Part shown: positions 1 through 50,598 of the stretch, piece after piece
Layout: the number at the start of each line of letters is the position of its first letter
Numbering within the stretch: position 1 is the first letter of the stretch
From: Pseudomonadota bacterium
GTDB taxonomy: Bacteria; Pseudomonadota; Alphaproteobacteria; Rhodospirillales; Rhodospirillaceae
Reading direction: 5' to 3'
DNA length: 50,598 nt
Assembly (NCBI GenBank): GCA_020160875.1
Contig: JAIUPE010000013.1
Span: 1-50,598, forward strand
The notes under the pieces: model-generated
What the model was told of the DNA's origin: nothing
The model's database searches: none
Seen by the model: only the letters and a program-made list of their open reading frames with translations
Program-made: the position numbers and the translations under genes

Positions 1-2460
1 ATGGTCCGGGCACGCGGGATATCCCGGCGCCGGGCGGATGCCGCGATACTGTTCCGCGATCAGCGCTTCATTGCTCAGGCTCTCGCCCGGATCGTAGCCC
101 CAGAATTCCTTGCGTACCCGCTGATGCATGCGCTCGGCGAAGGATTCTGCCAAGCGGTCGGCAAGCGCTTTAAAGAGGATCGCGCTGTAATCGTCTTGAT
201 CGCGCTCGAACGTGGCGACCTTGTCATCCGTGCCGATGCCCGCCGTCACGGCGAAGGCGCCAATATAGTCGGCGATGCCGGTCTCTTTCGGGGCAATGAA
301 ATCGGCCAGCGCCGCGTTGGCGCGATCCGAGCTGCCTTCGCGCACCATTTGTTGACGGAGCGTGTGAAAGGTCGTCAGCACGGTCTTGCGGGTATCGTCG
401 GTGTAGATTTCGATATCGTCGCCGACCGCATTCGCCGGCCAGAAGCCGATCACGGCGCGGGCCGTCAGCCATTTTTCGCCCACCAGACGCTGCAGCATCG
501 CCTGCGCGTCGTTGTAAAGGCCGCGTGCCGCCTTCCCGATCGTGGCGTCTTCCAGGATGTTCGGGTATTTGCCCGCCAGCTCCCACGTCTGGAAGAAGGG
601 GGTCCAGTCGATTGTGCGTGTCAGCTCCGCCAGATCGTAGTCGTCAAACCGCACGAGACCGAGTGTCCGCGGGCGTTCGGGCGTGTAACCGTCCCAGACG
701 ATCTTTGTCCTGTTCGCGCGGGCGGCCGCAATGCTCTGGCGCTTCTTGCTCTGCTGCTGGCGTGCATGCGCCTCGCGCATCTTCTCGTAGTCGGCCTTCA
801 CGCCGGCGACGAAGCCGTCGCGCAGTTGATCCGACATCAGGCTGCCGGCGACGCCGACGGCGCGTGAGGCATCCTGCACGTAGACCACGGCGTTCTTGTA
901 TCCCGGGGCAATCTTCACCGCGGTATGGACCTTCGAGGTCGTCGCGCCCCCGATAAGCAGCGGCACATGGAATCCCTCGCGGTCCATTTCCCGCGACACG
1001 TAAGCCATTTCATCGAGGCTCGGCGTGATGAGGCCCGAAAGCCCGATGATATCCGCCTTCACGTCGCGCGCGGCCTGCAGGATTTTCGCCGCCGGCACCA
1101 TCACGCCGAGGTCAACGACCTCGTAGTTGTTGCACTGAAGCACCACGCCGACGATGTTCTTGCCGATGTCATGCACGTCGCCCTTTACGGTGGCGAGTAG
1201 AATTTTACCATTGGTCTGGCGCTCGTCCGTGATTCCGGCGGCGGCCTTCTTGGCTTTTTCTTCTTCGATGAAGGGGATCAGGTAGGCGACCGCCTTTTTC
1301 ATCACGCGCGCGCTCTTCACCACCTGCGGCAGGAACATCTTGCCGGCGCCGAATAGGTCGCCGACGACATTCATGCCGTCCATCAACGGCCCCTCGATGA
1401 CGTCCAGCGGGCGGCCGCCCTTTTTCTCGGCTTCTTTCCGCGCTTCCTCGGTGTCCTCGTCGATGAAGTCGGTGATCCCGTTCACCAGCGCGTGGGTCAG
1501 GCGCTTGTTCACGTCGTTTTGACGCCATGACAGGTCGGCGGCCGCTTTCGGTCCGCCGCCGGCCTTGTACTTGTCCGCGATCTCCAGAAGGCGGTCCGTT
1601 GCATCGCCGCGCCGGTTCAGGATCACGTCCTCGCAGCGCTCTTTCAGCTCGGCTGGAATGTCCTCGTACACCGCGAGCTGACCGGCGTTGACGATGCCCA
1701 TGTCCATGCCCGCCTTGATGGCGTGATACAGGAACACCGAGTGGATCGCTTCGCGCACGGGTTCGTTGCCGCGGAAGGAGAACGACACGTTCGAGACGCC
1801 GCCCGAGACGTGGCAATGCGGCAAAGTCTGTTTGATACGCCGCGTCGCCTCGATGAAGTCCACGGCATAGTTGTTGTGCTCTTCGATCCCGGTCGCGACC
1901 GCGAAGATGTTCGGATCGAAAATGATATCCTCGGGCGGAAAGCCCACTTTTTCGGTCAGCACCTTGTAAGACCGAGTGCAGATTTCGACTTTACGCTCTT
2001 GGGTGTCCGCCTGGCCTTTTTCATCGAAAGCCATCACCACCACGGCCGCGCCGTAGCGGCGCACTTTTTTCGCCTGGGCGACGAAAGCCTCTTCGCCTTC
2101 CTTGAGGCTGATGGAATTGACGATCGGCTTGCCTTGAACGCACTTCAGCCCGGCCTCGATCACGCTCCACTTGGAGCTGTCGATCATGATCGGCACGCGG
2201 CTGATGTCGGGCTCCGAGGCGATGAGGTTCAGGAACTTCACCATCGCGGCTTCGGAATCCAACATGGCTTCGTCCATGTTGATATCGATGATCTGGGCGC
2301 CGCTTTCGACCTGTTGACGCGCGACGTCCAGCGCCGCTTCGAAGTCGCCGGCGAGAACGAGTTTCTTGAACTTCGCCGAGCCTGTGACGTTCGTGCGCTC
2401 GCCGACGTTGATGAACGTTGCCGTTTGCTTCAGGGCGGCGCCCTCGGTCGCCGTGCTCAT
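1..2460 (-). CDS. metH: Methionine synthase MetH, C-terminal part (folate, cobalamin and reactivation domains), 3' truncated at window edge
   Basis: This is the second half of a split cobalamin-dependent methionine synthase, which moves the methyl group of methyl-tetrahydrofolate to homocysteine through cob(I)alamin. 820 codons are present without a stop. The pterin-binding domain starts at about residue 16 ([12 protein letters not shown]). The cap and B12-binding domains follow, with the cobalamin-ligating motif D428-x-H430-x-x-G433 in GDVHDIGKN. The SAM-binding reactivation domain runs from about 570 to the edge and ends in [15 protein letters not shown], the segment that in E. coli MetH contacts SAM. 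By comparison with the 1227-residue E. coli protein about 80 residues are missing. The ATG overlaps the stop of the upstream metH fragment as ATGA, implying translational coupling. Confidence 0.96.
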
Positions 2461-48142: not shown

Positions 48143-50598
48143 GCACGGCGACCGAGGGCGCCGCCCTGAAGCAAACGGCAACGTTCATCAACGTCGGCGA
48201 GCGCACGAACGTCACAGGCTCGGCGAAGTTCAAGAAACTCGTTCTCGCCGGCGACTTCGAAGCGGCGCTGGACGTCGCGCGTCAACAGGTCGAAAGCGGC
48301 GCCCAGATCATCGATATCAACATGGACGAAGCCATGTTGGATTCCGAAGCCGCGATGGTGAAGTTCCTGAACCTCATCGCCTCGGAGCCCGACATCAGCC
48401 GCGTGCCGATCATGATCGACAGCTCCAAGTGGAGCGTGATCGAGGCCGGGCTGAAGTGCGTTCAAGGCAAGCCGATCGTCAATTCCATCAGCCTCAAGGA
48501 AGGCGAAGAGGCTTTCGTCGCCCAGGCGAAAAAAGTGCGCCGCTACGGCGCGGCCGTGGTGGTGATGGCTTTCGATGAAAAAGGCCAGGCGGACACCCAA
48601 GAGCGTAAAGTCGAAATCTGCACTCGGTCTTACAAGGTGCTGACCGAAAAAGTGGGCTTTCCGCCCGAGGATATCATTTTCGATCCGAACATCTTCGCGG
48701 TCGCGACCGGGATCGAAGAGCACAACAACTATGCCGTGGACTTCATCGAGGCGACGCGGCGTATCAAACAGACTTTGCCGCATTGCCACGTCTCGGGCGG
48801 CGTCTCGAACGTGTCGTTCTCCTTCCGCGGCAACGAACCCGTGCGCGAAGCGATCCACTCGGTGTTCCTGTATCACGCCATCAAGGCGGGCATGGACATG
48901 GGCATCGTCAACGCCGGTCAGCTCGCGGTGTACGAGGACATTCCAGCCGAGCTGAAAGAGCGCTGCGAGGACGTGATCCTGAACCGGCGCGGCGATGCAA
49001 CGGACCGCCTTCTGGAGATCGCGGACAAGTACAAGGCCGGCGGCGGACCGAAAGCGGCCGCCGACCTGTCATGGCGTCAAAACGACGTGAACAAGCGCCT
49101 GACCCACGCGCTGGTGAACGGGATCACCGACTTCATCGACGAGGACACCGAGGAAGCGCGGAAAGAAGCCGAGAAAAAGGGCGGCCGCCCGCTGGACGTC
49201 ATCGAGGGGCCGTTGATGGACGGCATGAATGTCGTCGGCGACCTATTCGGCGCCGGCAAGATGTTCCTGCCGCAGGTGGTGAAGAGCGCGCGCGTGATGA
49301 AAAAGGCGGTCGCCTACCTGATCCCCTTCATCGAAGAAGAAAAAGCCAAGAAGGCCGCCGCCGGAATCACGGACGAGCGCCAGACCAATGGTAAAATTCT
49401 ACTCGCCACCGTAAAGGGCGACGTGCATGACATCGGCAAGAACATCGTCGGCGTGGTGCTTCAGTGCAACAACTACGAGGTCGTTGACCTCGGCGTGATG
49501 GTGCCGGCGGCGAAAATCCTGCAGGCCGCGCGCGACGTGAAGGCGGATATCATCGGGCTTTCGGGCCTCATCACGCCGAGCCTCGATGAAATGGCTTACG
49601 TGTCGCGGGAAATGGACCGCGAGGGATTCCATGTGCCGCTGCTTATCGGGGGCGCGACGACCTCGAAGGTCCATACCGCGGTGAAGATTGCCCCGGGATA
49701 CAAGAACGCCGTGGTCTACGTGCAGGATGCCTCACGCGCCGTCGGCGTCGCCGGCAGCCTGATGTCGGATCAACTGCGCGACGGCTTCGTCGCCGGCGTG
49801 AAGGCCGACTACGAGAAGATGCGCGAGGCGCATGCACGCCAGCAGCAGAGCAAGAAGCGCCAGAGCATTGCGGCCGCCCGCGCGAACAGGACAAAGATCG
49901 TCTGGGACGGTTACACGCCCGAACGCCCGCGGACACTCGGTCTCGTGCGGTTTGACGACTACGATCTGGCGGAGCTGACACGCACAATCGACTGGACCCC
50001 CTTCTTCCAGACGTGGGAGCTGGCGGGCAAATACCCGAACATCCTGGAAGACGCCACGATCGGGAAGGCGGCACGCGGCCTTTACAACGACGCGCAGGCG
50101 ATGCTGCAGCGTCTGGTGGGCGAAAAATGGCTGACGGCCCGCGCCGTGATCGGCTTCTGGCCGGCGAATGCGGTCGGCGACGATATCGAAATCTACACCG
50201 ACGATACCCGCAAGACCGTGCTGACGACCTTTCACACGCTCCGTCAACAAATGGTGCGCGAAGGCAGCTCGGATCGCGCCAACGCGGCGCTGGCCGATTT
50301 CATTGCCCCGAAAGAGACCGGCATCGCCGACTATATTGGCGCCTTCGCCGTGACGGCGGGCATCGGCACGGATGACAAGGTCGCCACGTTCGAGCGCGAT
50401 CAAGACGATTACAGCGCGATCCTCTTTAAAGCGCTTGCCGACCGCTTGGCAGAATCCTTCGCCGAGCGCATGCATCAGCGGGTACGCAAGGAATTCTGGG
50501 GCTACGATCCGGGCGAGAGCCTGAGCAATGAAGCGCTGATCGCGGAACAGTATCGCGGCATCCGCCCGGCGCCGGGATATCCCGCGTGCCCGGACCAT
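48139..50598 (+). CDS. metH: Methionine synthase MetH, C-terminal part, 3' truncated at window edge (right-arm copy)
   Basis: Identical copy of the gene at 1-2460, with pterin-binding, cap, B12-binding (D428-x-H430-x-x-G433) and SAM reactivation domains. The open frame runs off the window after PACPDH at codon 820, the same codon as on the left edge. Confidence 0.96.

Follow-up and report, generated by a model that had tools for sequence, protein, structure and literature searches.

The window analysed here, 50,598 nucleotides in all, is one entire contig (G000:C13, positions 1-50598; GenBank JAIUPE010000013.1) of a genome from the alphaproteobacterial family Rhodospirillaceae. That genome, G000, comprises 3,759,503 bases in 219 contigs, with a completeness of 90.87% and a contamination of 0.52%. 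The left half of the window encodes methionine synthase (metH, in two open reading frames [ORFs]), an ABC transporter, an arginase-family protein, cytochrome c', a DUF983 protein, a GntR/aminotransferase regulator, flagellin, CorA, a family-41 glycosyltransferase, hydantoinases A and B, and an M20 peptidase, and it ends inside a gene for a Lipoprotein_15 protein. The right half is the same DNA in mirror image. Compared with its own reverse complement, the window has 0 mismatches over 50,598 positions, and its two arms, positions 1-25299 and 25300-50598, measure 25,299 bp each with a spacer of 0. No 21-mer is repeated inside one arm. Self-complementarity over the full length of a contig cannot be chance. 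A sequence-only reading of the same DNA had described a perfect 2 x 25,299-bp palindrome without a spacer, with chromosomal genes in its arms and a gene cut at its centre, and all three descriptions hold. A further feature, beyond that reading, is that metH is broken at both outer edges. Judging from its genes and their order, the left arm is ordinary chromosome: five of its blocks are collinear with a single contig of the closest relative, G012:C116, at 84-89% DNA identity, while a sixth, short match of 74% hits a neighboring paralogue.

What does the centrally cut gene look like in other bacteria? In the window it is broken after residue 215, at the crease between the arms, where the mirrored copy supplies a spurious end (Table 1). 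The sequence-only reading had proposed looking for its continuation in related genomes. In the four best places found among relatives (G012, G004, G005, and G007), the frame reads on, open for 482 to 512 codons with no stops, and the amino acid identities to the crease gene are 93%, 74%, 75%, and 68%, respectively. The G012 homologue, taken from its start, is 458 amino acids long. Where the window has the mirrored read-through, G012, G004, and G005 instead encode (V/T)GFSVY.... At the DNA level, G012 carries TCCACCGAC followed by GTCGGTTTC across this site, versus TCCACCGAC followed by GTCGGTGGA in the window. The G012 site is itself a natural 12-bp palindrome, ACCGACGTCGGT, and its similarity to the mirrored arm ends exactly after the 12-mer. 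Even palindromes of 12 bp occur at 25 places in 30,000 bp of G012, the crease one included, so the chance of a crease landing on one is about 8e-4.

Table 1. Features of the window and their coordinates
Feature	Position	Strand	Remarks
Left arm	1-25299	+	Judged the sole real segment (25.3 kb of chromosome); metH truncated at edge, Lipoprotein_15 gene truncated at crease
Right arm	25300-50598	-	Exact reverse complement of left arm (0 mismatches); judged a fold-back copy without independent existence
B12-dependent methionine synthase (pterin, B12, and activation domains)	1-2625	-	Contig edge cuts last ~80 residues; mirror copy at 47974-50598 (+)
Homocysteine S-methyltransferase part of methionine synthase (PF02574)	2457-3545	-	Separate ORF
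Blocks collinear with G012:C116	5-4923, 4941-10005, 10090-11172, 11380-17319, 23375-25299		DNA match 84-89%
Short flagellin	10091-11011		306 amino acids
Family-41 (O-GlcNAc-transferase-like) glycosyltransferase	15575-17890		Same strand as flagellin
Hydantoinase A/B, M20 peptidase, and small-protein block	17320-23374	+	Absent between the same two neighbors in G012
Lipoprotein_15 (PF03640) protein, first 215 residues	24655-25299	+	Crease cuts gene; mirror copy at 25300-25944 (-)
12-bp palindrome at crease	25294-25305	.	Natural sequence in G012; relative leaves mirrored arm at next base
40-residue spurious read-through and stop	25300-25422	+	From mirrored copy; makes a 255-amino-acid ORF ending at 25422

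When the G012 DNA lying beyond the metH edge was used as a query (5,751 bases), it matched another contig of the source genome, G000:C21, with 82% identity over query positions 317-3045 and 3134-5751 and 90% over 242-308. The tail of C21 holds the last ~21 metH codons, then an insertion of ~1.25 kb relative to G012, and then the downstream DNA (82%). The gap between C13 and C21 is ~180 bp. Since metH continues on C21, the chromosome runs on, and the outer edge is an assembly gap rather than the end of a molecule. As for metH itself, 11 order-level relatives have a matching open frame of 1227 to 1305 codons, as against the two methionine synthase ORFs at 1-3545 of the window; in those relatives, methionine synthase is apparently a single gene.

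The end of C21 has an oddity of its own. At positions 38370-38936, the last metH codons are fused in frame to a fragment of 565 bp whose motifs resemble those of a histidine kinase. The fragment has a G+C content of 0.71, versus 0.63 for the arm. Against 41 genomes, its own among them, the strongest match other than to itself has an E value of 9e-24 and 36% identity, and among the matches listed from 40 relatives, none exceeds 40% identity. The junction with metH is GCAAGGGCATGGA, 13 bases that G012 metH has as well. These features make the end of C21 a probable second chimeric joint sharing ~13 bp, which was counted in favor of an artifact at C13.

How was the contig put together? A comparison of 114 contig ends found four pairs that overlap or share a start by at least 14 bp (C117/C162, C162/C205, C123/C51, and C142/C147), each by exactly 77 bp. 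Shared ends of exactly this length imply a de Bruijn graph with K=77, and the assembler was probably SPAdes-like. Such a graph was simulated for three cases. With the arm and one 300-bp fold-back fragment (case A), it yielded a single unitig identical to the window. With a real palindrome and two flanks (case C), it yielded two flank unitigs and a palindromic unitig of 50,602 bases, the sequences standing in for the flanks happening to have the same two bases at either edge. An edge of the contig that is also the edge of the palindrome is thus expected either way, and the sequence-only reading's use of this coincidence as a clue to an artifact turns out not to be diagnostic. It is the flanks that discriminate, because a real palindrome predicts two flank contigs bearing the edge sequence. 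In a search of G000 that covered part of the genome, as binned contigs, and allowed up to 2 mismatches, a 26-mer from the outer edge occurred only in C13, and a crease-spanning 26-mer (20 arm bases plus six common to G012) occurred in no other contig. That no flank contigs were found in the part searched leans toward an artifact.

The events might have run as follows. One or more library strands would have ended at the natural 12-bp palindrome inside the Lipoprotein_15 gene. Single-stranded 3' ends carrying the self-complementary 12-mer could then have paired with each other, much as primer dimers do, and filling in of the paired ends would have produced a short, spacerless fragment forming a perfect inverted repeat. 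In the K=77 graph, such a fragment would connect the 25.3-kb arm, at its end, with the arm's reverse complement, for which case A demonstrates sufficiency. With the true continuation missing at the crease node, the arm would be written out twice as one self-complementary contig, and the outer edge would be an ordinary break in the assembly within metH, past which the chromosome proceeds into C21. A missing true branch, which would let the fold-back win, is in keeping with a locus whose gene family has dozens of members. Could the assembler have done this with no chimeric fragment at all? The smallest usual assembler k is 21. A 12-bp palindrome is shorter than that, so this origin was set aside. 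Overall, the contig is very probably a fold-back artifact of this general kind, with an origin in amplification or a missed adapter included as a minor variant. The sequence-only reading had pointed to a self-reverse-complementary contig from assembly, a view now supported by the crease palindrome in G012, the open frames in four relatives, metH on C21, and the K=77 simulation.

Several points weigh against a fold-back artifact. The 12-bp palindrome is seen in G012 and not in an unfolded sequence of the host organism itself; G005 retains only its core, and G004 has none at the crease site. When the natural continuation, for which a stand-in from G012 was used, is also covered (case B), the simulated graph breaks at the crease into pieces of 25,305, 3,559, and 142 bases, so the simulated outcome requires that the natural branch be uncovered or pruned. 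G000 yielded no true continuation beyond the crease: for the 3,488 bases that follow in G012, its best match is 72%, below the level of an orthologue. That match lies on C51 and was rejected as the missing continuation; with the arm at 84-89% identity to G012, it is probably a paralogue. That the distal DNA was not found could reflect the loss of a short contig, and also a real fold-back event that deleted it. None of the contigs seen in G000 is shorter than 2.5 kb, and short pieces may have been dropped from the assembly. Finally, the fault is not a common one in this assembly, since no other palindromic contig was seen among the 55 contigs tested of the 219. In 37 readable contigs of 40 taken whole, the sole inverted match of at least 30 bp at 90% identity was one of 32 bp, and among 18 large contigs tested by their ends, none had a 3-kb tail complementary to its head.

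Might the palindrome nevertheless be real? Palindromes and fold-back priming at breaks have been tied to inverted duplications (PMC3315005, PMC10622511). Following a break, sister fusion or fold-back priming at the 12-bp palindrome could have produced a recent inverted duplication of the chromosome, whether throughout the population or in some of its cells. A very recent duplication would also be expected to give a mirror copy with no sequence of its own and no spacer, and the DNA distal to the crease was, as mentioned, not found in G000. Large inverted repeats do exist in nature: they span 38 to 76 kb in 5/5 Lactobacillus delbrueckii ssp. bulgaricus chromosomes analyzed, and their ancestral spacer is postulated to have been 8 bp, but the same report gives them in 0/1373 other chromosomes (PMC5345009). 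Those repeats have centers of 1 to 8.8 kb, contain dif, lie at the terminus, and have twofold depth in two strains. They resemble C13 in being inverted repeats, tens of kilobases long, of ordinary chromosomal genes; C13 differs in its zero spacer, in that no flank contigs were found in the part of the genome searched, and in the absence of a dif motif at up to 3 mismatches to an E. coli-type consensus, from which the true dif of this group may differ. In G015, the weak cumulative GC skew falls throughout 80-303 kb, with metH at 276-279 kb and the contig ending at 307 kb, and there is no terminus-like peak. A real duplication further requires zero divergence and zero spacer across 25 kb, no pair of contigs sharing the edge sequence turned up in the part of the genome searched, and the sole continuation of the edge that was found is C21. 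It is therefore very doubtful that such a duplication occurred, and just as doubtful that a spacerless 50.6-kb chromosomal palindrome, its distal DNA lost, persists in at least part of an uncultured alphaproteobacterial population despite nucleases such as SbcCD. If true, it would be an exceptional palindrome for a bacterium.

Other origins start from the molecule or the library. If a linear replicon ended in a covalently closed hairpin and was sequenced through it, the result would be a spacerless palindrome centered on a short palindrome. The crease, however, sits inside a coding gene that reads on in relatives, and the arm, which is collinear with G012 and carries metH, CorA, and ABC transporter genes, is ordinary chromosome. 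No match to the protelomerases ResT or TelK was found in G000, while 1 of 14 control genomes gave one. This suggestion of the sequence-only reading is thus unsupported, and a hairpin end is exceedingly improbable. An unlikely variant of the artifact, though less so than either the hairpin or the real duplication, is that the joint came from multiple displacement amplification (MDA) or from an undetected long-read adapter and not from a short-read library fold-back. Amplification often yields palindromic reads (PMC6218980, PMC13265396), and among MDA chimeras, 406 of 475 (85%) were inverted and 76.8% had at least 2 complementary bases at the joint, with up to 21 (PMC1855051). C13 shares with these an inverted join and short complementarity, here of 12 nucleotides. 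In that report, the MDA inversions come with loss of the DNA in between, and a spacer would then remain; C13 has no deletion or spacer at the joint and no sign of amplification. A missed adapter, which the sequence-only reading had also raised, belongs to the right class in being an artifact, but the exactly 77-bp shared ends indicate a short-read graph, and a long-read adapter fits them less well than does a short-read library fold-back.

Fold-back of the favored kind has precedents in sequencing libraries. Chimeric reads fold back at natural palindromes in enzymatically prepared libraries and at inverted repeats in sonicated ones, for which the PDSM model invokes pairing of single strands from similar molecules followed by end repair (PMC10908179). 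False variants occur at palindrome centers (PMC6941819), interrupted palindromes arise from hairpin loops (PMC3946424), and most chimeras from amplification are inversions that have lost the DNA between their arms (PMC1855051). As in the PDSM reads, the joint in C13 lies on a short natural palindrome and the second half repeats the first in reverse complement. Unlike C13, the cases in PMC10908179, PMC6941819, and PMC3946424 are individual short reads or spurious variants from libraries of human or cod DNA; here, the joint has been propagated by the assembler into a 50.6-kb contig and is known from the assembly alone. Among titles and the openings of abstracts, no account of a self-complementary contig in a metagenome-assembled genome was found, the related work being on palindromic or fold-back reads (PMC13265396, PMC12870357). 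If the fold-back reading is right, a single fragment is enough to duplicate 25 kb of a genome that serves as a species representative. All of the arm genes are then doubled (metH, CorA, flagellin, and others), and the crease acquires a false gene end. Contigs that match their own reverse complement throughout could feasibly be screened for and halved automatically.

The Lipoprotein_15 family deserves a word in its own right. Its members are present in dozens of copies per genome: G000 gave 51 matches, counting both mirror copies and with scores for 50 of 78 candidates, and the highest number among 61 genomes was 61, in G020. At three places, window 23371-25299, G000:C147, and C108, a Lipoprotein_15 copy lies beside a second protein of 378 to 406 amino acids that has no Pfam match. 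The second proteins are 43 to 49% identical to one another. The two genes look like a greatly expanded pair.

The arm also differs from G012 in the hydantoinase A/B, M20 peptidase, and small-protein block, whose two neighbors adjoin each other in that relative. Is this another chimeric joint? In G005:C110, window positions 15774-22979, the glycosyltransferase included, match in one collinear run at 79 to 83%. Since G005:C110 is collinear on the left side and the neighbors of the block adjoin in G012, insertion or loss in place is likelier, and a second chimeric joint at this site was set aside. The G005:C110 match ends at 22979, leaving the right boundary, 22979-23375, without confirmation in another relative; with that boundary so qualified, the block was judged to be natural variation. 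Elsewhere in the arm, the short flagellin lies 4.6 kb from the family-41 glycosyltransferase on the same strand, and the two may possibly form a flagellin glycosylation pair.

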